Below are positions 1 through 32,161 of a DNA stretch of 32,161 nt, piece after piece. The notes under the pieces were generated by a model that was not told where the DNA came from, searched no databases, and saw only the letters and a program-made list of their open reading frames with translations. The translations under genes were made by a program, and so were the position numbers. The stretch is from a virus: positions 1 to 32,161 of the IMG/VR virus record IMGVR_UViG_3300042860_003194; one strand, written 5' to 3'. The first letter of the stretch is position 1, and each line of letters begins with the position of its first letter.

Positions 1-89
1 ACCTCTCGTGTGTGTTGCTTGCATCGGGGGGTATGAGTGAGCTCGGGGCATCCAGGTGTAGAACATCGGGTTGCTGGTTTCCACGGCAT
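1..89 (-). CDS. HNH endonuclease, N-terminal part (cut by window edge)
   Basis: The first 29 codons begin MPWKPATRCSTPGCPEL and continue to CKQHTRE. This C-x4-C ... C-x2-H zinc-binding start with a basic leader is typical of the HNH endonucleases encoded next to phage terminase genes, which nick DNA and support packaging. The HNH catalytic core is not in the window. The start at 89 is chosen because it sits exactly 8 nt after the start-associated element (98-116) shared with other genes; an in-frame ATG at 119 is the alternative. There is no Shine-Dalgarno sequence. Family assignment rests on the zinc motif and on the matching gene end at the right edge of the window. Confidence 0.6.
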   Translation of the reverse strand, partial: MPWKPATRCSTPGCPELTHTPRCKQHTRE

Positions 90-116
90 ACATAGAGTGG
101 TGCTTGCCGGTGGGGA
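87..116 (-). promoter_or_regulatory. Start-associated element before the HNH gene
   Basis: Read on the minus strand: TCCCCA (116-111), 7 nt, GCACCA (103-98), 8 nt, ATG (89-87). Both boxes and both spacings match the elements at seven other genes. It replaces a ribosome-binding site here. Confidence 0.6.
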
Positions 117-252
117 CATACGGGGGGTATGCTTACTATGGGGGGGTATCTTCTACGGTGCAGGGGTAGTCTACAGATTCCTTGAGGTTCCTCAGCAGGC
201 AGGGGGGTGTCATCTTCCCGTTCCCGACCTGGGGGGAACAGATCGCATTCCC

Positions 253-306
253 CAATGAGAATCCCTCGTCCTCCCCGTAGGGGGGAGGACTTTGGGAATC
301 TCATTG
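253..306. repeat. Large imperfect inverted repeat / hairpin
   Basis: Left arm 253-276 and right arm 282-306 pair through a 9-bp perfect inner stem (GTCCTCCCC / GGGGAGGAC) and a 13-bp outer stem with one mismatch (CAATGAGAATCCC / GGGAATCTCATTG), around a loop of about 5 nt. No T-run follows on either strand, so a simple intrinsic terminator is unlikely. It may be an RNA structure or a protein-binding palindrome. The outer arm sequence recurs at 385-397. Confidence 0.75.
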
Positions 307-347
307 TGAGGCCTGCGTTATTTCCCCTGCTTTTGAGCGTGGAATTG

Positions 348-533
348 GTGCGTGCTGGGGGTTCAGTGCTGGGGGCACGCAGCCCAATGAGATTCCCTGA
401 GATTCCCGAGGGGTGCGTGTGGGGGGCACGATACGGACATTCCGCCCACGTAGAGACATGCAGTCGCAGCTCTGCGTGCTGGGGGCAAAGCCACCGGGGG
501 TTGGCGGTATTGACCGGGTGCGAGGTGGGGGCA
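348..533 (+). repeat. Array of degenerate TGCGTGCTGGGGG repeats
   Basis: Copies start near 348 (GTGCGTGCTGGGGGTT), 366 (GTGCTGGGGGCA), 413 (GTGCGTGTGGGGGGCAC), 473 (TGCGTGCTGGGGGCA) and 518 (GTGCGAGGTGGGGGCA). All have the G-tract on the plus strand. Looser relatives (TGCTTGC-N3/4-GGGG) occur at about 17-34, 102-119 and 130-149. Spacing is irregular, so this is neither a simple satellite nor a CRISPR array. Confidence 0.65.
385..407 (+). repeat. Tandem TGAGATTCCC repeat
   Basis: TGAGATTCCC occurs twice back to back (388-397 and 398-407). The first copy extends to CAATGAGATTCCC, which is the complement of the right arm of the 253-306 inverted repeat. The same 10-mer occurs again at 8863-8872, inside a small gene. 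Confidence 0.7.
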
Positions 534-561
534 TGGTGGAACCTTTGAGGCTGTCAAGCTG

Positions 562-591
562 TCCACTGAGAGGAGCACTGATTCACCCATG
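562..591 (+). promoter_or_regulatory. Start-associated element before gene 589
   Basis: TCCACT (562-567), 7 nt, GCACTG (575-580), 8 nt, then ATG at 589. The 7-nt spacer also contains AGAGGA, so a weak Shine-Dalgarno function is possible at long spacing. Confidence 0.65.
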
Positions 592-894
592 ACCGACCAC
601 ACACCATTACTCGATGAGATACTCGAGGCACGCACCCGAATGAATCTCGCTCGTGTCGCATCAGACCGAGCTGCAGCAGAATACCGTCAGACTGTCCGCC
701 GAGTGGTGGAGTCGTGGAGATCAAACGGTGTGCCGCTCCGCCGGTGCGCCGATCGCATGAGTATCAGTGAGGGGGCTCTGCGTGAGCTGCTACGTGCCGA
801 GGGTGTATCCCGCCGCACACGAAAGAAGAAAGCTCAGCCGAACGTCGTTGTTGCTGAGGTTCAGAACGACTGGAGATTAGGGAAGGGTGCGTAA
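589..894 (+). CDS. Small putative helix-turn-helix protein
   Basis: 101 aa. A predicted helical N-terminal half (about residues 8-45) is followed by LRRCADRMSISEGALRELLR (about 51-70), which has the spacing of a helix-turn-helix as in sigma-region-4-like or small phage DNA-binding proteins. A basic stretch RRTRKKK follows. The start carries the start-associated element. It is the first gene of a rightward operon, and its stop overlaps the next ATG (TAATG). DNA binding is inferred from the pattern only. By position, next to the G-tract control region and divergent from the late side, a regulatory role is possible. Confidence 0.7.
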   Translation: MTDHTPLLDEILEARTRMNLARVASDRAAAEYRQTVRRVVESWRSNGVPLRRCADRMSISEGALRELLRAEGVSRRTRKKKAQPNVVVAEVQNDWRLGKGA

Positions 895-2794: not shown

Positions 2795-2811
2795 TTGCGT
2801 GCTGGGGGTGT
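2795..2811 (+). repeat. 17-bp polar repeat, perfect copy
   Basis: TTGCGTGCTGGGGGTGT. It lies in the gap between the leftward transglycosylase-like gene and the rightward gene at 2877. With its flank it also forms GCACG-N5-CGTGC. Confidence 0.8.
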
Positions 2812-4327: not shown

Positions 4328-4355
4328 GCCGGTGATGGGTGCGCCCAGGTGTGGA
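4325..4355 (-). promoter_or_regulatory. Start-associated element before the methyltransferase gene
   Basis: Minus strand: TCCACA (4355-4350), 7 nt, GCACCC (4342-4337), 9 nt, ATG (4327-4325). It forms one block with the adjacent 17-bp repeat, and the whole 36-bp block recurs at 6027-6062. Confidence 0.7.
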
Positions 4356-4372
4356 TTGCGTGCTGGGGGTGT
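4356..4372 (+). repeat. 17-bp polar repeat, perfect copy
   Basis: TTGCGTGCTGGGGGTGT in the divergent gap between the methyltransferase (start 4327) and the membrane-protein gene (start 4404). Confidence 0.85.
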
Positions 4373-4376
4373 AGTG

Positions 4377-4860: not shown

Positions 4861-5172
4861 TTACGGTTGCTGCCAGGGGGCTGTTTGAAAGGTGTGCATC
4901 TGTGGTCTCGGACATAGAGGCACTGGAGCTGCCTGCCGAGTGATGCGGCCGGTGCAGGTCACCTTGAATGTTGGATCGCTTCGATGATACCACGTGCTGA
5001 CTCGAGCTTTGTTAGTGTGTATCGTTATGGCGTAATGACCTGTCCAGCAGCTCGTGTAGAAGGTGCCTTGCTTGATGTAGGTTCGGCAGCGATCCGGCTG
5101 AGTAGCTTCTGCCGGTGCAGCTGCGATTGCGATAGCGAGCGTGCTTGCGAGTATGGCGGTTATGGTCTTCAT
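4861..5172 (-). CDS. Small secreted cysteine-containing protein
   Basis: 103 aa. MKTITAILASTLAIAIAAAP is a signal peptide with likely cleavage after AEA (about residue 23). The mature part has four cysteines (near RCRTY, TSCWTG, VTCTG and PLCPR), which fits disulphides outside the cell. It resembles no family recognised here. The start carries the start-associated element. It could be a lysogenic-conversion or exclusion factor displayed or released by the host; that is inference from the signal peptide and the accessory position. Confidence 0.7.
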   Translation of the reverse strand: MKTITAILASTLAIAIAAAPAEATQPDRCRTYIKQGTFYTSCWTGHYAITIHTNKARVSTWYHRSDPTFKVTCTGRITRQAAPVPLCPRPQMHTFQTAPWQQP

Positions 5173-5211: not shown

Positions 5212-6018
5212 TCAGCTCTCTGACCGGGGGTCATGCGTGCTGGGGGTGTCGTCTTCTACGAAACAGCCACACCCTCCCCAATCATTTGCGTCGATAGGTT
5301 GCTGCGCCTCTACTCGTTCGCGAAGGGTCTTTAGGGTCAGGGGTGCTTTGACTCCCTTTTTGGTCTCAGTCAGAATTGAGACATCCTTTGCCAAGTAATC
5401 CCGCATCTCTTGCTCTTTTTTCTCATGAGCCGCGTAGCGATCAGGAAAAACCTCAAGCAGTTTCTTGAATTGTGCTTGACCGGCGCGAACACAGAAACCT
5501 CCGCAATTGTTATGCGCGAATCCGAGACCATACAGACGTGGTGCAGTTAGACCCTCGCTCTCGGCCCAATCGATAAGCTGTTGCTTGTCCATGTATGGCT
5601 TTTCGGTTAGTGGTGCCCTCGCAATGTATGGTGCATAGTTTCTTTCGATTGCGCCCAATCGATGGATTTCACTCCAGTCAATGCCTACGTAGACTATTGC
5701 TTGCTCATGGGTGTAGTTGCTCTCAAGCCAGCTTCTTGCTGGTTTTTGTTTGAGCTCGTGAGAGCAGCTCGCTAAACGCGAATTACCTATGAATCTCTTG
5801 TCTCTGAAAACCTGCCATACATCACGCCCATCGCGCAAGATCACCAGCTCACCGCCAATGTTGGCATGTGCGTCGTCGATGAATCTGTAAAGGTCTTCGT
5901 CTTCAATGCCGGTATCTGAGAATAACAGCGTCAGGTTGTCTGTGCCGTGTTCGGCTGCGACCCTCTTAGCTGCGGCCCAAGAGCCAATGCCTCCCGAGAA
6001 CATTACTATGTGTTGCAT
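5212..6018 (-). CDS. PP-loop ATPase / PAPS-reductase-like protein
   Basis: 268 aa from the ATG at 6018. An N-terminal FSGGIGSWAAA (about 7-17) is the SGG-x-(D/G)S PP-loop of the adenine-nucleotide alpha-hydrolase superfamily, followed by LLFSDTGIED. Cysteines lie at ASCSHELK (about 85), NNCGGFCVRAGQ (about 172 and 176) and GGCGCF near the end, a pattern seen in phage PAPS-reductase-like and DndC-like proteins that may bind Fe-S. The substrate is unknown. Possible roles are sulphur transfer in nucleic-acid modification or sulphur metabolism. Its neighbour is a DNA methyltransferase, which makes nucleic-acid modification attractive but unproven. The C-terminal DDTPSTHDPRSES is encoded by the 5233-5249 repeat. 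Confidence 0.8.
   Translation of the reverse strand: MQHIVMFSGGIGSWAAAKRVAAEHGTDNLTLLFSDTGIEDEDLYRFIDDAHANIGGELVILRDGRDVWQVFRDKRFIGNSRLASCSHELKQKPARSWLESNYTHEQAIVYVGIDWSEIHRLGAIERNYAPYIARAPLTEKPYMDKQQLIDWAESEGLTAPRLYGLGFAHNNCGGFCVRAGQAQFKKLLEVFPDRYAAHEKKEQEMRDYLAKDVSILTETKKGVKAPLTLKTLRERVEAQQPIDANDWGGCGCFVEDDTPSTHDPRSES
5233..5249 (+). repeat. 17-bp polar repeat, one mismatch
   Basis: ATGCGTGCTGGGGGTGT, inside the last codons of the PP-loop gene and about 60 nt upstream of the secreted-protein start. An ACCGGGGGTC stretch follows directly to its left. Confidence 0.75.
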
Positions 6019-6045
6019 CCTGAAAAGGGTGCGCCCAAGTGTGGA
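6016..6045 (-). promoter_or_regulatory. Start-associated element before the PP-loop gene
   Basis: Minus strand: TCCACA (6045-6040), 7 nt, GCACCC (6032-6027), 8 nt, ATG (6018-6016). Together with the adjacent repeat it is identical to 4337-4372 except for one base. Confidence 0.7.
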
Positions 6046-6062
6046 TTGCGTGCTGGGGGTGT
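6046..6062 (+). repeat. 17-bp polar repeat, perfect copy
   Basis: TTGCGTGCTGGGGGTGT in the divergent gap between the PP-loop gene (6018) and the HNH/holin gene (6098). Confidence 0.85.
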
Positions 6063-6070
6063 TGTAGCAT

Positions 6071-6883: not shown

Positions 6884-8719
6884 CTATGCGTTGAGCAAGT
6901 TCCAGCTCGCAGGCTGTTCCTTACCCTTCCACCAAATCACGACTCGCTCGTCGAGCATCGCCTTGAGCTTCTCGGGATTGTTCATGACGCGAGCCTTACC
7001 CTTACCGACCGGCAGAATCATAACGCCCTCGATCAGGGTTGATAGAACCTCGTGCTTGACAGCAAATTCCAAATCCGCCCATACAGATAGATCGCCTGAC
7101 GGGAGGATTCGAGTCACGTCCGGAGCGGTGGGTATCTTCCCCGCAGCTGTGACGAGTTCCTCGATGCGTGCTGCCAGCTTCTCTGCCTTCTTCTCGTAGG
7201 CATCACGTAGAACCGATGAGAGGTCAGGCATGATGGCATCAATAGTTTCTTCGAGCTGGCGGCGCAGCTTCTCGATCTCCTGTGCTTCAGATGCGCCACC
7301 CGAGGTGAGTCTGTTCATCTGCCGCTCATACTCTTCGTGCTCCCGACGTAGGTTGTCAGCATCGAAAAGCTCAATTGCCTTTTGCGACACATACTCTTCG
7401 AGCATGTCGAGTCGGATTGAGACACCGCTGCACTCTTTTGTTTGCACTCCGTTGCAGCTGTAGGTGCCGTTCTCTACACCCGTGGCTGTGCGGCGACTGC
7501 ACGTCCGACCACACTTACCGCATTTGACCAGGCGACGCAGCAAGACATCTACCTTTGGGGCTCGAGCGAATGTTCGCTTAGAGATTGCACGCTGTAGGTC
7601 AAGGTATTCTTCAAGGGTAAGCACGGGATCGACCCCCTGCACCATGTTGCCGTTGCTGTCTTTCTGCACTCGGTCGAGACGCAGCTTGTAGTTTCGGTAG
7701 CGATTATTCCGATTGCGACGCTCCTCAGCGTCCTCTTTTGCCGAGTCATTGTGGGTTAGGTAGCCAGCCAAGATAGGGTTGGTCAAACAGTAGCGTGCAG
7801 TCCCGGTGATTCGAGATCGGTCGTCGTTCTTCGGAATCCAGCCACCGGCGACGAGTATGTCAGCTGCATCAGCCAAAGAGCCATCTTCTTCGACCAGCAA
7901 GGTGTAAAGCTTGCGAACAGTAGCAGCCCATCCCTCTCTTGGCTCCATGATCTTGCCCATCTCGGTCACGCCGTAGGCATCGGTCCGTGGAAATTTGGGG
8001 GCAGTAAAGCTACCGTCCTCTGCATAGGTGATTCCCTTTAGGGTGTAGCCGGTAGGGAATCCACCGCCCACGTAGAAGCCAAGCTGATTCTTTGGAGCAC
8101 GCTTGCTGCGGATACGGCGAGATGTGGCGCGGCTGTAGTCCTCGTTTGTAGCAGAGCTGGCAGCGGACTGGAAGAATCCACCCATGTCACGAGTAGAGCG
8201 TTCGCCCTCTGCCTGGCACCATGCCACGAGCCCCCGGCGTGTCATCTCGTGAATGAAGTTTAGAGGCTCCATGAGATCGCGGCTGTAGCGTGACTGCTCC
8301 CAAGCAGCACTGCCGTCGTAAAGCTTCTGCTCCAATAGGTGACGATTCATCATCTGCCACGCCGGTCGGAAAGGTGGCTCTTGGTCCGGACGTGTCCAAG
8401 CAGATGTGCGATCCCAATAGAAATGAGTGATGCGAACCTGCTTGCCGTATTTGGCAGACAGCTCGCGCTCCCATGCAGGGATCATCTTGGCTTGGTCCAT
8501 AACACTCAGGGTCTCACCCTTCGAGTTGCGGCAATAGGCTGCGAATTGCAGCTCGCCAGGTATGGCAGTCTGAATCTGCACGTAGCCGTGCTTCTTGGAA
8601 TCAACGAGCTCGGACAGCTCAGTCCAGTTGATTTGCGTGCCGGGGGTGTCTGCGCCGGTCAGTGGCTTGTTGTAGGTCTTGTCGTTTAGCTGCTGTGCTG
8701 GTAGAAACATCGTGGTCAT
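6884..8719 (-). CDS. int: Large serine recombinase (integrase)
   Basis: 611 aa. Its catalytic region is unusual in starting only near residue 58: FAAYCRNSKG (catalytic Ser about 66 with Arg 64), then WEQSRYSRDL (about 140-149), then EGERSTRDMGGFF. A recombinase domain follows (GFYVGGGFPTGYTLKG ... ILAGYLTH), then a zinc ribbon CGKCGRTCS ... YSCNG ... KECSG (about 395-430) and a coiled coil (about 440-530), the standard large serine integrase order. It would catalyse attP x attB integration into the host chromosome. The start is supported by GAGAGGAA 6 nt upstream. A 17-bp polar repeat copy lies inside codons 24-29. Confidence 0.92.
   Translation of the reverse strand: MTTMFLPAQQLNDKTYNKPLTGADTPGTQINWTELSELVDSKKHGYVQIQTAIPGELQFAAYCRNSKGETLSVMDQAKMIPAWERELSAKYGKQVRITHFYWDRTSAWTRPDQEPPFRPAWQMMNRHLLEQKLYDGSAAWEQSRYSRDLMEPLNFIHEMTRRGLVAWCQAEGERSTRDMGGFFQSAASSATNEDYSRATSRRIRSKRAPKNQLGFYVGGGFPTGYTLKGITYAEDGSFTAPKFPRTDAYGVTEMGKIMEPREGWAATVRKLYTLLVEEDGSLADAADILVAGGWIPKNDDRSRITGTARYCLTNPILAGYLTHNDSAKEDAEERRNRNNRYRNYKLRLDRVQKDSNGNMVQGVDPVLTLEEYLDLQRAISKRTFARAPKVDVLLRRLVKCGKCGRTCSRRTATGVENGTYSCNGVQTKECSGVSIRLDMLEEYVSQKAIELFDADNLRREHEEYERQMNRLTSGGASEAQEIEKLRRQLEETIDAIMPDLSSVLRDAYEKKAEKLAARIEELVTAAGKIPTAPDVTRILPSGDLSVWADLEFAVKHEVLSTLIEGVMILPVGKGKARVMNNPEKLKAMLDERVVIWWKGKEQPASWNLLNA
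8633..8649 (+). repeat. 17-bp polar repeat, one mismatch, in integrase 5' coding region
   Basis: TTGCGTGCCGGGGGTGT lies about 70 nt inside the integrase gene on the opposite strand, where it encodes part of DTPGTQI. Confidence 0.7.
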
Positions 8720-9058: not shown

Positions 9059-9874
9059 CTACTCGTCAATGAATTGGTTTATGAGGCTTGGATGGCGGAG
9101 CTTAGAGATTGCTGTGGCCTCCAGTCGGCGCATGGCCTCACCAGTGACCCCATACCGATCCCCGAGCTCTGCGAGGGTAGCCTTGTCCACGTTGTCGAGC
9201 CCGAAACGAGCCTTGATGACCTCTTGCTCGATGGGAGCCAGCTCGCTGATTGCCCTATGTAGGGACTCTGCCAGCATGCGACGTTCGACCTCCTCGTGTG
9301 GGTCAGACGATTCATCGGCTATGGTATCGGCAATAGTCCTACCCCCGGCATTGTCCCCCGGAATTGGTTTGTCGAGGCTATCTGATACCATAGGCAGCTG
9401 CTCGAACCGTGACCACTCACCGGCGACCTGCGCTCGCTCTTCTCGGGTCAGCTCTCGTCCAAGCTCGCCGCTGATCTCGTTGATACGCTTCTGCACCCTT
9501 GCAGCCTTGTAGCTGACCTGCTCGGGGATGTAGATGGTCCTGTCCTGATCGATACCCTTGTTGAGTGCTGTCAGGATGTATCTCTCTGCGTAGCCATAGA
9601 GGGTTCCCTTTTCAGGTCTCCATCGATCTACAGCCTGCGTTAGAGCCAAGCTACCAATAGCCAGTAGCTCGTCAAAATCCAAACGATAAGTCTTCCCCAG
9701 GTAGGGAATCATGCGCATGTGGCGACGAATGAGCTCCTCTTTGACCTTTGCTTCGGCAGCCTCATCGCCGTCACTACGTGCAGCCTGAAGCTGCTCGCCA
9801 AGTTCAGAAACCTGAGCTTGTGTAAGAGGTTCAAAATCCGGACTCGATAGCCGGTCAGAGAGTGAGGGTATCAT
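9059..9874 (-). CDS. Phage sigma-70 family RNA polymerase sigma factor
   Basis: 271 aa. Region 2 is visible at about 48-110 (LIRRHMRMIPYLGKTYRLDF ... FDELLAIGSLALTQAVDRW ... YAERYILTAL). Region 3 follows (SREL-type ELGRELTREERAQVAG and an LDKPIPGDNAG linker), then region 4 at about 212-265 (ELAPIEQEVIKARFGLDN, then a helix-turn-helix ATLAELGDRYGVTGEAMRRL). It is organised like primary or group-2 sigma factors but lacks region 1.1. It would direct host RNA polymerase to phage promoters. The start overlaps the helicase stop (ATGA), so it is translated with the early genes. This fits a switch to late genes. Confidence 0.9.
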   Translation of the reverse strand: MIPSLSDRLSSPDFEPLTQAQVSELGEQLQAARSDGDEAAEAKVKEELIRRHMRMIPYLGKTYRLDFDELLAIGSLALTQAVDRWRPEKGTLYGYAERYILTALNKGIDQDRTIYIPEQVSYKAARVQKRINEISGELGRELTREERAQVAGEWSRFEQLPMVSDSLDKPIPGDNAGGRTIADTIADESSDPHEEVERRMLAESLHRAISELAPIEQEVIKARFGLDNVDKATLAELGDRYGVTGEAMRRLEATAISKLRHPSLINQFIDE

Positions 9875-12109: not shown

Positions 12110-12312
12110 AGCGCAGTCTTTATTCGTTGCAGCTGTAGCTGCGCATCATCACGTTCAGCAATGATACGTTCACGGTCAGAGATGAGCCACTCGAATAGGT
12201 TTGACTCTTCGTCATCATCAAATGCTCCGTTATCGGTTCGCCAGCTGATGAGAGTTCTAATGCGGCTGATTTTGACCTCAGCGATCTGCTCAAGAGATAG
12301 ACCCTCTGTCAT
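12097..12312 (-). CDS. Small hypothetical helical protein (71 aa)
   Basis: Acidic and almost fully helical, with a coiled-coil-like C-terminal half (SDRERIIAERDDAQLQLQRI). Overlaps at both ends (ATGA with the gene upstream, 13 nt with the gene downstream) show it belongs to the early operon. No family was recognised. Confidence 0.65.
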   Translation of the reverse strand: MTEGLSLEQIAEVKISRIRTLISWRTDNGAFDDDEESNLFEWLISDRERIIAERDDAQLQLQRIKTALWEQ

Positions 12313-12965
12313 CGCTTCACCGCCTTCTCAAGCTTGCTGATAAGGTCCGATGCTTGTGCCTTCGTCAAGTCTTTTGTAGAGACGACTCCGTATGCTTTCA
12401 AGAGTCTTTCGTGGTATTCACCGTCGTCTTCGAGAGAAGGAATGTCGCGACGTAGAATTTGGATACGCTGCACCTGCTTGGCATCAGCGCGAACCGGCTG
12501 CTCCTCGTCAGAGCTCTGCCAGCCATTATCGATCTCAGGCTCAGGTGCTTTTACCGGAGCCGGTGCCGGTGCTGGAGCTGCTTGGCGAGCTTTAGCGGCC
12601 TTGACCTCATCTGCCGAGGCAATTCCCTTTTTGGTGTCGGCTGCGAGCACGGCAACGATTGCTCTACCCCATGCTGATGTCTCACAGACCATAGCTTCAG
12701 AGTCACGAGTAAAGGGTGTCCGTCCAGGAAAAGGTTCCCACGCGATCCCAATACCCGGACGTTGATCATCCGGGGTTCGATAGGCTGCGGCGACGTATTG
12801 CAGGTATGTCTTGTCGCCTAATGTGATTATCTTTACCGGCTCAAAGCTGTCCACCGGCTGGAGTGACCCGTTAGGGTATTTTGCGCGGAATTCCGCGATA
12901 CGAGTGGCGACATCGATGTAGTCTTTACCCCAGTCGCCTGTGTTGGGGCGTGTGTGTGTAGTCAC
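12309..12965 (-). CDS. Putative single-strand annealing protein (Sak/ERF-like)
   Basis: 218 aa, GTG start. The N-terminal about 115 residues contain YLQYVAAAYRTPDDQRPGIG and CETSAWGRAIVAVLAADTKK, recalling the E-T-S-A-x-GRA signature of ERF/Sak-type annealing proteins. A proline/alanine linker (APAPAPAPVKAPEPE) and a helical C-terminal domain (about 155-218) follow. It would coat and anneal single-stranded DNA for recombination. Neighbours are a resolvase and a helicase. GCACAC lies 8 nt before the start, a partial match to the start-associated element. Family assignment is moderate. Confidence 0.55.
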   Translation of the reverse strand: MTTHTRPNTGDWGKDYIDVATRIAEFRAKYPNGSLQPVDSFEPVKIITLGDKTYLQYVAAAYRTPDDQRPGIGIAWEPFPGRTPFTRDSEAMVCETSAWGRAIVAVLAADTKKGIASADEVKAAKARQAAPAPAPAPVKAPEPEIDNGWQSSDEEQPVRADAKQVQRIQILRRDIPSLEDDGEYHERLLKAYGVVSTKDLTKAQASDLISKLEKAVKR

Positions 12966-12983: not shown

Positions 12984-13583
12984 TCAGTCGGGTTGCGCAC
13001 GCGCAGAGCGCAAGTCCTTTACCACAGCACGAGCTGACCGCATCCAAGAGAGCAGGATGTCGGGTCGAAACGTGCGTAATTCGCGGCTTAGAGCGACCCA
13101 GCGGCCCAGCCCCCGGTAGTTCTCATAAGCGAAGATAGCGCGATCCATAATGCCATCATGCCAGCCCTGCTCCAAGTGAAGGAGACCCTCAAGGAAGGTA
13201 AGCTCATCTTGATGAAGCCCGTAGTCTTCGGCTGCATCTTCGGGGTGGCGGCCTACTGCAATGTCCATTATGAATCGACGAATGGTCTGAGGACTGCTTT
13301 CATGATCCCACTCCCCGTATGCTCGAAAAACCGAGTCTATCCTCGGATCGAACATTATGTGGTGCTGACCGCAGAGCATTGCTACCGTCATTGCCGGTAT
13401 GCTATCTGTATCAGGAAGCAAAGCCCCGACGACCCGCATTGGGAAACGAGCTGCATTGATAGCGATAGGAGCAGGGTAGTTCTGAGTCTCTTCGAGCATT
13501 TCGATGGTGTTGAAGAGACCATCGTCGGTTATTGGGAAGCTCCCCGCAAACCTGAGAAGCATGTCACGGACTGGTATCGTCAT
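12984..13583 (-). CDS. Hypothetical protein (199 aa)
   Basis: A soluble, largely helical protein: MTIPVRDMLLRFAGSFPITD ... MLCGQHHIMFDPRIDSVFRA ... LSRELRTFRPDILLSWMRSARAVV. No motif or family was recognised. It has a good ribosome-binding site (GGAGG) and overlaps the WhiB gene end by 20 nt, so it is coupled to it at the head of the early operon. Confidence 0.7.
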   Translation of the reverse strand: MTIPVRDMLLRFAGSFPITDDGLFNTIEMLEETQNYPAPIAINAARFPMRVVGALLPDTDSIPAMTVAMLCGQHHIMFDPRIDSVFRAYGEWDHESSPQTIRRFIMDIAVGRHPEDAAEDYGLHQDELTFLEGLLHLEQGWHDGIMDRAIFAYENYRGLGRWVALSRELRTFRPDILLSWMRSARAVVKDLRSARAQPD

Positions 13584-13809
13584 TACGTGCCTCCGACTCG
13601 TATGCTCTTTCGATGGCAGTCAGACCTCCCCATACCCCCGCTCTAAAAACAGCCTGACCTTCAAGATCGAGAGCGTATTCCAAACACTCGGCCTTGACTG
13701 GACAGCTGAAGCAAATAGCTTTTGCCTGCTCCCGCTCATCGGGAGTCCGCCGGTTGTAGAACAGACGCGTCCCAAGCCCCCGGCAAGCTGCCTTATGTCT
13801 CCAAGTCAC
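13564..13809 (-). CDS. WhiB-family regulator (short)
   Basis: 81 aa from a GTG at 13809. The four cluster cysteines lie at about 9, 33, 36 and 42 (KAACRG ... AICFSCPVKAECL), followed by AGVWGGLT (about 57-64). This is a minimal Wbl protein: a [4Fe-4S] binding transcription factor acting with sigma factors. It is likely the first gene of the leftward early operon that ends with the phage's own sigma factor. The start has no Shine-Dalgarno sequence but carries the start-associated element. Confidence 0.93.
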   Translation of the reverse strand: MTWRHKAACRGLGTRLFYNRRTPDEREQAKAICFSCPVKAECLEYALDLEGQAVFRAGVWGGLTAIERAYESEARNDDTSP

Positions 13810-23803: not shown

Positions 23804-23834
23804 GTGCTTCTCCTCTGTTTCGTCTCTTATGAGA

Positions 23835-23876
23835 ACGGCCCGTCAGTGACAGCGAGTGCTGCCGCTGACGGGCCGT
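23835..23876. terminator. Hairpin after the major capsid gene
   Basis: A 12-bp perfect stem ACGGCCCGTCAG (23835-23846) / CTGACGGGCCGT (23865-23876), with a smaller CAGC/GCTG stem in the loop. It lies 17 nt after the capsid stop in transcription order. Only a weak T-run follows on the minus strand (GTTCTCAT). It probably acts as a partial terminator or mRNA 3' stabiliser to raise capsid yield. Confidence 0.7.
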
Positions 23877-23892
23877 CCCTACGTCCGCTCTA

Positions 23893-30035: not shown

Positions 30036-31645
30036 AGTAGCTCGACCCCCCGATCCTCGTAGACGCTCTTGCCGGTAAACGCTGAGCCCGTGAGCATGGC
30101 CGAATTCAGCGACATGGCCAGCGCGACGATTCCGTCGATACGAGCCACAGACCGAGCCTTGTCCACCTTGATGTTTCCAGCCGGGTCCATGTTTACGAGT
30201 GCGCTGTCGGCGTGCGCTCGCAACACCGGGTGTGCTCCGTGCCTTAGCGTCTTGGAGAGGATGAGTGCCTCAAGCCTTTTGGTCGGAGCTGACATGGTTG
30301 CAAATCCCTGCCGTGTTGGAGCGACTCGCATTCCAAGCTCCTGGAGATCGGTTATCAGAGACGTAGCGTTCCACGGGTCATAGGCAAGCTCTAAAATCGG
30401 GTGCTTGTCAGCGATGTCAATGATAGCTTGCTTGATCCATTTGTAGTCCACGACGTTGCCCGGAGTCAGGGTGATGTGACCTTGATCGGCCCATGTTCCG
30501 TATGGCAGCCGGTCTCTTTTCTCACGCTCTCGAAGGTCAGCCCCTGGTATCCAAAAATGCGGTATCGCGGTGTATCCGCCATCTTCTTCAGGGAAGAGCT
30601 GCACGAGAGCACTGATGTCTGTGGTGCTCGAAAGATCGAGCCCGATGTAGCAAGGTCTTCCCTCATACTCCTTCTTGTCGATAGGTGTCTCGCCGCACGC
30701 ATCCCAAGCTCGCATGTCAATCCAACGACTGACCTCCCTGGTCCAACGATTGAGATACAGCTGAGCAAAGGTAGTCTGACGAGCTGGCGATACTTTAGCC
30801 TTCTGCACTTCGCTCTCAAGGAAGTCCGGCATTACAGTAATTCCAAGAGACGGATTCGCCTTTGCCCATGTTTTAGGATTGTCCCAGTCGTCAGCGTCCT
30901 CAGCTGCGTAGATGACAGTGAGGAAGCTGTCGTCGCGGTGTGTTCCGTTTGCTACGTTCACAGCATACTCGTGCTGCTCCCATGCGATGTGGTTCGGATC
31001 GTAGACACCGGCGGTAGTAATTCCAATAACGATTGGCTGGCGACGTGCTCCTACCGAGGAGCTGAGAACATCCCACAGCTCGCGACTCTTATGTGCGTGC
31101 ACCTCATCGAGAACACAGAGGCTTGCCCCGAGCCCGTGTTGCCCCAGCGCGTCACCTGAGATTGTGCGGAGAACAGAGCCAGTCTTAGGCACCTCAATGT
31201 ATGATCTAACAGCACGACACCGGCCACGTAGCTTTGGAGATGCCTGCACCATCTTTCGCGCCAGCTCGAAACATAGTCTTGCCTGAGCTCGATCACGAGC
31301 ACCCATGTAAACCTGAGCTCCGGGTTCATTGTCGGCCAACAGACCATAGAGAGCGAGACCGGCGCACATGGTAGTCTTAGCTGCCTTGCGGGGAACCTCC
31401 ACCCACACAGTGCGATACAGTCGAGTGCCGTCAGCTCGCTTGTATCCGAACAGCGGTCTAATGACCTCGTATTCCATCCACGGCATCAACGGCCACGGTT
31501 CACCGGCACCTTTACCTTCCACCAGGTGTAGCAGCTCGAAGAAACGCACAGCTCGATCTGCCGCCTGCTCGTCGTAGTAGGCTCCATCGGGAAGGTATTT
31601 GCCAGCCGACGTATGGAGAGGCTTAGTCCAAGAGATCGCTGTCAT
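30032..31645 (-). CDS. terL: Terminase large subunit
   Basis: 537 aa from the ATG at 31645 (GGAG 9 nt upstream; 31660 is an alternative). The ATPase has Walker A VPRKAAKTT (about 84-92), Walker B LCVLDE (about 176-181) and coupling motif ITTAG. The nuclease part starts at YIGLDLSSTTDISALVQLF and continues with ELAYDPWNATSLITDLQELG; its aspartates bind metal. It is a terminase of the Terminase_1/YmfN-like type found in cos phages of HK97 kind, fitting the HNH gene nearby. It cuts and translocates phage DNA into the prohead. Confidence 0.95.
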   Translation of the reverse strand: MTAISWTKPLHTSAGKYLPDGAYYDEQAADRAVRFFELLHLVEGKGAGEPWPLMPWMEYEVIRPLFGYKRADGTRLYRTVWVEVPRKAAKTTMCAGLALYGLLADNEPGAQVYMGARDRAQARLCFELARKMVQASPKLRGRCRAVRSYIEVPKTGSVLRTISGDALGQHGLGASLCVLDEVHAHKSRELWDVLSSSVGARRQPIVIGITTAGVYDPNHIAWEQHEYAVNVANGTHRDDSFLTVIYAAEDADDWDNPKTWAKANPSLGITVMPDFLESEVQKAKVSPARQTTFAQLYLNRWTREVSRWIDMRAWDACGETPIDKKEYEGRPCYIGLDLSSTTDISALVQLFPEEDGGYTAIPHFWIPGADLREREKRDRLPYGTWADQGHITLTPGNVVDYKWIKQAIIDIADKHPILELAYDPWNATSLITDLQELGMRVAPTRQGFATMSAPTKRLEALILSKTLRHGAHPVLRAHADSALVNMDPAGNIKVDKARSVARIDGIVALAMSLNSAMLTGSAFTGKSVYEDRGVELL

Positions 31646-32072
31646 CAGACGATTCTCCATCCGCTTTCAATCGCGTGCGTGCCGACGGGGTCAAGCCCAA
31701 TTCGCCGGCGAGCTGGCGAATCAGCATCGCGGAGTCACGCTGCACTCTTACAGCTGGATTGCTTACCATGCCGTCACGCCGGCCTTCGACCAGCACGCCT
31801 TCTCGATCCACAATCTCGGTCGAGCGTTGGTAGTTCACGACTGCGTTAGCATAAGCAGCCAAGATGTCTTGGTCGGCTTCGAAGAGTAGTCCCATCAGCT
31901 TCAGTTGCTTGGCGGTGCGTCGCCACACAGCCTTTGCATCTTTGCTGAGCCACGTCGGACAGCGCGGCTCGCTCTTGGCTGGCTTCGGTTCCTTTTGATT
32001 GATACGGTCAGCACGCACTCCGCGAACGACGCGCAGGTGCGTTGGTGTTGGTGCCGGTCCCGGTCTTGCCAT
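31623..32072 (-). CDS. terS: Terminase small subunit (P27 family-like)
   Basis: 149 aa: MARPGPAPTPTHLRVVRGVR, a basic N-terminus, then PTWLSKDAKAVWRRTAKQL, AAYANAVVNYQRSTEIV, VSNPAVRVQRDSAMLIRQLA and GLTPSARTRLK, the order typical of the phage-terminase small subunit P27 family. It recognises the packaging site. A strong ribosome-binding site, AGGAGG, lies upstream. Its end overlaps the large subunit start. Confidence 0.9.
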   Translation of the reverse strand: MARPGPAPTPTHLRVVRGVRADRINQKEPKPAKSEPRCPTWLSKDAKAVWRRTAKQLKLMGLLFEADQDILAAYANAVVNYQRSTEIVDREGVLVEGRRDGMVSNPAVRVQRDSAMLIRQLAGELGLTPSARTRLKADGESSDDSDLLD

Positions 32073-32161
32073 TACGAGCTCCTCCTATGGGGTGCTTTTA
32101 TCAGTGCGCCGATTCCGTTCGGTGACATAGTTGGCCTAACCTGTCCTTTTGCGGGCGAAGC
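32072..32161 (-). CDS. C-terminal end of the gene upstream of the small terminase, probably HNH endonuclease (partial)
   Basis: 30 codons open to the window edge, ending KAPHRRSS and a TAA that overlaps the terminase ATG (TAATG). The sequence ASPAKGQVRPTMSPNGIGA could be the basic tail after an HNH core. The other half would be the N-terminal piece at 1-89. If the window ends are joined directly, the two parts are not in the same frame. Confidence 0.4.
   Translation of the reverse strand, partial: ASPAKGQVRPTMSPNGIGALIKAPHRRSS

Follow-up and report, generated by a model that had tools for sequence, protein, structure and literature searches.

The window, by which we mean the whole stretch of DNA analysed, is a 32,161-nt phage contig from the IMG/VR viral collection, and nearly all of its large genes lie on the minus strand. 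The minus-strand gene set includes the terminase subunits, portal, protease, tape measure, WhiB and a DnaB-like helicase, together with an RpoD-type sigma factor, a serine recombinase, a cytosine methyltransferase and a PAPS-reductase-like gene. A second contig, L003, bridges position 32161 of the window to position 1 through 287 nt that are absent from the window; with them the HNH gene is complete (109 aa) and has its first codon at position 89 on the minus strand. Since L003 joins the two ends, the map is circular, as the original prediction had supposed, and positions 90-588 are therefore intergenic between the minus-strand HNH gene and a divergent plus-strand gene for a 101-aa protein.

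1-89, minus strand: 5' part of the HNH endonuclease gene (109 aa; the rest lies in the 287-nt gap and is taken from L003)
90-588, no strand: the whole non-coding control region, between the HNH start (89, minus) and the start of the 101-aa gene (589, plus)
589-894, plus strand: divergent 101-aa gene, with a long N-terminal helix and a helix-turn-helix (HTH); homologues in relatives
9059-9874, minus strand: phage RpoD-type sigma factor, kept in the six genomes compared
31623-32072, minus strand: terminase small subunit (terS), the first gene past HNH on the circular map

We rejected the possibility that 90-588 is coding sequence: the open reading frames found there have no match in the relative G001. 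Three contigs of one phage (the window, L002 and L004) stop at exactly position 32161, and this shared end at 32161/1 is probably either where the virion DNA ends (cos) or a common assembly break. In the relatives L056, L060, L062, L063, G016 and G017 the contig breaks inside HNH or in the stretch from there to terS.

Conservation of the region and its neighbours

The relative G001 (32,764 nt) is probably complete, because it has an 87-nt terminal overlap, and it is collinear with the window (TerL is 74% and DnaB 55% identical). Its G-rich region occupies the corresponding position before HNH, and the gene on the far side encodes a homologue of the 101-aa protein with 48% identity. As a query, the single 101-aa sequence found no relatives; a profile made from the two sequences found G014 (37% GC), G016 (38%), G017 (64%) and G018 (64%), and profiles of TerL and HNH added L054, L057, L066, L068, L080 and L081. 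The region lies directly before HNH in the window and nine relatives, at 37-67% GC and whatever gene is on the other side, and the architecture of 90-588 is conserved in all nine. The proposal of a control region upstream of the HNH-terminase-structural genes is thus supported by position and by conservation, the lack of which in relatives had been named as the outcome that would speak against it. The placement of the region between early-like and late-like units fails for some relatives: in G018 it lies between minus-strand genes, with the 101-aa gene 5 kb away, and in G017 the 101-aa gene is likewise 5 kb away.

In more distant phages, whose HNH proteins are 35-46% identical, neither array nor iterons were found before HNH, a single iteron match excepted. 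A search of GTDB genomes with the TerL profile returned no relative and no prophage in a host genome, and isolated phages held no homologue of the 101-aa protein and only TerL and HNH matches below 60% identity. The relative contig L040 (34% GC) carries two divergent 101-aa genes and no G-tract region. The phage group is probably actinobacterial. The N-terminal half of a 218-aa early protein of the window (12309-12965) is 63-66% identical to hypothetical proteins of the Gordonia phages GAL1 and Kuwabara, a match that may hint at actinobacterial hosts.

The AlphaFold2 model of the 101-aa protein has a pLDDT of 80 overall and of 93-97 over residues 11-70, with helices at residues 5-45, 50-56 and 61-68. 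A fold search gave non-significant matches only, mostly to HTH proteins, and on this model the protein is a candidate DNA-binding regulator. The phage also carries two WhiB-like genes (13564-13809 and 1640-2332), the first of which is kept in all six genomes compared.

G tracts and an oriented 13-mer

More than ten runs of five to seven G on one strand had been predicted, and 90-588 indeed contains 11 such runs and not a single C5 run. Over 1-588 there are 12 G runs of at least five and again no C5 run, while the whole 32 kb holds 29 G5 against 14 C5 runs. Dinucleotide shuffles of 1-588 (n = 1000) gave 4.5 G5 runs on average and never more than 10, versus the 12 observed, and in shuffled whole windows the richest 588-nt stretch had at most 4. 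The three sites of the original prediction are all present where it had put them, as exact GGGGGGTAT (26-34, 122-130 and 141-149); the first of them, however, falls inside the HNH coding sequence and not in the intergenic region.

The strand bias recurs among the relatives. The counts of G5/C5 runs in the region are 11/0 in the window, 12/1 in G001, 4/1 in G014, 6/0 in G016, 5/0 in G017 and 4/0 in G018, so that one-strand G tracts are found in all six genomes compared (42 G5 versus 2 C5 in total); the region of L066 has 7/0. Arrays equivalent to that of the window are present in L042, L036, L038, L054, L057 and L066. The array is missing in L068 and weak in L080, and therefore is not essential to the group. 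Within the group, contig breaks are frequent in the G array or close to it, as they might be if the array reflected chance base composition or an assembly artefact. However, the shuffle tests and the recurrence of the region in separately assembled contigs at 37-67% GC argue against this explanation, which conservation refutes and which we consider scarcely credible.

The suggestion that closely spaced G tracts could form G-quadruplexes was not supported by motif prediction: four tracts of at least three G with loops of 1-7 nt occur nowhere in the window's region and once in total over six regions. A canonical G-quadruplex is poorly supported because the tracts are spaced 15-50 nt apart.

The loose repeat described earlier as TGCKTGC-N-GGGGG is real and sharper than stated, and is best written TGCGTGCTGGGGG. 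It is the commonest 13-mer of the window, with six exact copies, all on the plus strand; these copies, the variants within the region and the G-tract array are located as follows.

122-236, plus strand: G-tract array adjoining the HNH start, with runs at 122-127, 140-146, 202-207 and 231-236, two of them being GGGGGGTAT
349-361, plus strand: 13-mer TGCGTGCTGGGGG, exact
363-381, plus strand: 13-mer variant TCAGTGCTGGGGGCACGCA, part of a dyad
414-426, plus strand: 13-mer variant TGCGTGTGGGGGG
473-485, plus strand: 13-mer TGCGTGCTGGGGG, exact
519-531, plus strand: 13-mer variant TGCGAGGTGGGGG
2796-2808, plus strand: dispersed exact 13-mer, 40 nt before the start of a transglycosylase-like gene (2755, minus)
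4357-4369, plus strand: dispersed exact 13-mer, 29 nt before the start of the cytosine methyltransferase gene (4327, minus)
5234-5246, plus strand: dispersed exact 13-mer, at the PAPS-reductase-like gene's 3' end and ahead of a signal-peptide ORF (starting at 5172 or 5207)
6047-6059, plus strand: dispersed exact 13-mer, 28 nt before the start of the PAPS-reductase-like gene (6018, minus)

The four exact dispersed copies thus share one orientation and lie about 28-61 nt ahead of accessory or lysis genes; for the copy at 5234 the distance to the signal-peptide ORF is about 61 nt, or 26 nt to the alternative start. A fifth dispersed site, at 8634, has one mismatch. In the window the exact copies are on the plus strand and the genes downstream of them on the minus strand, and the relatives are alike except for one minus-strand site in G017. 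An exact TGCGTGCTGGGGG is found in G001 too, ahead of the orthologous transglycosylase-like (lysis-type) gene. The dispersed copies fall in different reading frames, and protein sequence is therefore no explanation for them. A search of the viral collection for the exact 16-mer TGCGTGCTGGGGGTGT returned six contigs, which is about chance level by a rough count for a collection of that size; two of the six (near-identical, from one phage, a relative with 37% GC) carry the 16-mer in this intergenic region.

The stretches 6027-6065 and 4337-4375 are 39-nt copies of each other, 95% identical, which consist of the 13-mer and GGGTGCGCCC and sit directly before the starts of the PAPS-reductase-like and methyltransferase genes. 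GGGCACCC also occurs ahead of the transglycosylase-like gene, in the window and in G001. Judged by these repeats, the 13-mer and GGGTGCGCCC form a putative two-part start element. In G016 a 45-nt repeat with a variant of the 13-mer lies on both sides of a serine integrase gene (5436 and 7638, in window orientation), as if the integrase had moved as a cassette between the repeats.

The nearest described systems are stoperators, start-associated sequences and the Corndog repeats. Cluster A mycobacteriophages have more than 20 stoperators, the sites of the L5 repressor, per genome, at which an immunity repressor binds and stops elongation, and like the 13-mer these are asymmetric 13-bp sites, dispersed in short intergenic spaces, with one orientation relative to transcription (PMC9283540). 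However, the window has four exact dispersed sites (and the one with a mismatch at 8634) instead of more than 20, their sequence is different, and the 13-mer is in addition gathered in one array together with G tracts, iterons and a palindrome. The 13-mer appears to resemble stoperators most in its asymmetry and orientation; we do not claim membership, because the number of sites differs. The start-associated sequence (SAS) of Cluster K, GGGATAGGAGCCC, sits upstream of the start codon at a distance of 3-7 bp, where it overlaps the ribosome-binding site (PMC3203893). It too is an asymmetric 13-bp repeat found upstream of non-structural gene starts in one orientation, and it is sometimes accompanied by an extra inverted repeat (ESAS), which can be likened to the locus described here (PMC3203893). 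In contrast to the SAS, the 13-mer is about 28-61 nt away from the start and has no match to a ribosome-binding site. The Cluster O phages (Corndog group) carry many identical 17-bp dyad repeats across the genome (PMC4351075), and the window likewise has many identical short repeats, scattered over the genome of a probable actinophage; the Cluster O repeats are palindromic and unoriented, whereas the 13-mer is asymmetric and oriented (PMC4351075).

Iterons and the palindrome P1

The strongest feature of the region, a long imperfect palindrome (P1) with its iterons, had been overlooked in the original prediction.

210-219, plus strand: iteron TCATCTTCCC
253-306, no strand: P1, long imperfect palindrome with outer arms CAATGAGAATCCC / GGGAATCTCATTG and inner arms GTCCTCCCC / GGGGAGGAC
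294-303, minus strand: iteron TGAGATTCCC, within the right arm of P1
388-397, plus strand: iteron TGAGATTCCC, also in the leave-one-out test
398-407, plus strand: iteron TGAGATTCCC

The iterons have the consensus TSANNTTCCC, number 2-7 per phage region and are nearly confined to this locus. They occur in both orientations and also outside hairpins, and the motif in the outer arms of P1 recurs elsewhere within the same region. Each genome has its own form: TGAGATTCCC in the window, TGACATTCCC in G001, TCATATTCCC in G014, TCACATTCCC in G016, TCATTTTCCC in G017 and TCACTTTCC in G018. Sites were ranked with a leave-one-out PWM: in every one of the six larger genomes, 4-7 of the top 20 fell within the region, where 0.2-0.5 sites are expected by length and none of 300 shuffles reached the observed number; the pattern was first spotted by eye in these same regions, a circularity that leaving one genome out reduces and does not remove. 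The shorter contigs L066, L080 and L081 agree with this clustering, which is weak in L068 (9/300). Such a cluster of repeated sites at one locus is what an iteron origin would present, and the iterons are candidate initiator sites. For a 199-aa early protein considered as a candidate iteron binder (12984-13583; variable among relatives, with an all-helical model at pLDDT 87), the fold search found no structural relative.

In the window P1 folds as a two-part hairpin (z-score -5.2 as DNA and -5.2/-6.6 as RNA). Across the group it is 45-60 nt long, and its z-scores as single-strand DNA in eight phages range from -3.0 to -7.1. Only one 64-nt hairpin of the window is stronger, whichever strand is folded. 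Among the eight sequences ranked, P1 comes first or second in the window, G001, G014, G016, G017 and L066, about third in L068, and fourth or fifth in G018. The strongest hairpin of the window, at 23817-23880, lies immediately 3' of the gene for the major capsid protein and is a probable terminator. P1 itself was rejected as an intrinsic terminator: in none of the ten phages that have it is it followed by a T tail on either strand.

The plan of P1 is common to these ten phages (the window, G001, G014, G016, G017, G018, L066, L068, L080 and L081; L054 and L057 break inside the G array, so that P1 is unseen there, and are left out of the count). Its sequence is different in each, and the arms still pair. 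A search of viral contigs for the exact hairpin core gave no matches, as expected for a sequence that is not conserved. The mean pairing energy is -33.2 kcal/mol for native arms, compared to -22.4 kcal/mol when arms are swapped between phages (0 of 100,000 permutations), a figure that is supportive only, since the arms were chosen from folds and this favours native pairs. The change of the inner arms with pairing kept points to a strand that may act in folded form, rather than only to protein sites on duplex DNA.

One explanation for this conservation of structure is control at the level of RNA, either through an HNH-sense leader in which the P1 hairpin is followed by C-rich unstructured RNA (antitermination or Rho-type control), or through G-rich plus-strand RNA in R-loops or quadruplexes. 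P1 folds equally well as RNA on either strand, pairing persists while the inner-arm sequence varies, and the G/C strand bias is constant. However, no Rfam family was found in the window or in the loci of six relatives, there is almost no canonical quadruplex motif, and the iterons extend beyond the hairpins in both orientations. We regard RNA-level control as quite improbable.

An alternative explanation is that the region is a replication origin, at which an initiator would bind the iterons, P1 would be extruded or melted, and the phage's own DnaB-like helicase would be loaded. The iterons occupy a single locus, in both orientations, around a palindrome conserved in structure, and the helicase is encoded in the window and conserved in six genomes. 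In G001 the detrended GC skew has its minimum at the region and its maximum half a genome away, and in the window the minimum is near the region. The combination of repeated sites with a phage replication helicase function is also seen in lambdoid iteron origins. However, the locus differs from lambdoid origins: an AT-rich unwinding element is absent, an initiator gene was not recognised, and some of the iterons contribute to a long palindrome. In each of the six genomes tested, the G+C content of the region exceeds that of the genome, the skew does not fit G014 or G018, and an origin alone would leave the dispersed 13-mers before genes unaccounted for. The origin is the main rival to the reading we prefer, possible but doubtful, and is weakened by the missing AT-rich element and the inconsistent skew.

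Packaging comes next. If the iterons were sites for the terminase small subunit (cosB- or pac-like), then HNH and terminase would act at P1 or nearby. Kala et al. are said to have linked HNH endonucleases to cos packaging in 2014. The region always adjoins HNH, the iterons are at a single locus, and for many of the group's contigs the end falls somewhere from the G array to terS. It resembles HK97-type cos/HNH regions in adjoining the HNH and terminase genes; unlike those, it lies upstream of HNH, is more than 3 kb from terS in G014, and contains a palindrome that is crossed by all contigs holding it. P1 is traversed unbroken in all ten sequences that have it, no contig ends inside it, and the many ends inside HNH or in the interval from there to terS, three of them at 32161, suggest that cos is located there. 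In Paenibacillus phage LincolnB, an isolate with a related HNH, the HNH gene ends 55 nt from the right end of the genome. P1 as cos is therefore disfavoured, and we consider packaging as the function of the region unlikely.

A probable control locus before the late genes

The locus is real, conserved and made of several parts, and it probably serves an uncultured phage group as a control region. The original prediction had offered late promoters, a replication origin or repressor operators; the control region is supported, and these three cannot be told apart here. The position of the region before HNH in ten phages, together with the 13-mer before other minus-strand genes, points to control of transcription, and we judge it nearly an even call that the region is a compound operator/promoter of the HNH-terminase-structural (late) operon.

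From the observed sites, their conservation, orientation and position, we infer protein binding, an effect on transcription and the proteins that might act. A phage DNA-binding protein would occupy the TSANNTTCCC iterons, among them the two that make up the outer arms of P1 as an inverted pair, and a nucleoprotein complex would be built at the iterons and P1. A second phage factor, possibly the RpoD-like sigma factor, a WhiB protein or the 101-aa HTH protein, would read the G-tract and TGCGTGCTGGGGG sites in their one orientation. Together the two factors would set the time at which transcription on the minus strand, into HNH and the late genes, begins or is let through, and the copies of the 13-mer before accessory and lysis genes would place those genes under the same factor.

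Several observations do not fit this late-operon reading easily. A scan of positions 1-700 found neither a sigma-70-type promoter nor a T-tailed terminator; iterons that are nearly confined to one locus would suit an origin or a packaging site equally well; the altered but still pairing inner arms point to a folded strand; and the G array is lost in L068 and weak in L080. The combination of iterons, a covarying palindrome and a G array was not found in the papers searched, all of them openly licensed. It is conceivable, though rather improbable, that the locus is a phage switch of an undescribed kind, made of a structure-conserved hairpin, framing iterons and a one-strand G array, which would act as a folded single strand (either a leader RNA or extruded DNA) and link late transcription with replication or with packaging.

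With this locus, an uncultured phage group gains a regulatory landmark that is recognisable by its architecture and not by its sequence. It also offers specific pairs, the iterons with a candidate binding protein and the 13-mer with a sigma, WhiB or HTH protein, whose co-variation is testable in the ten phages. If it is true that P1 works as a folded strand, then it would be an unusual control element for the late genes of tailed phages.
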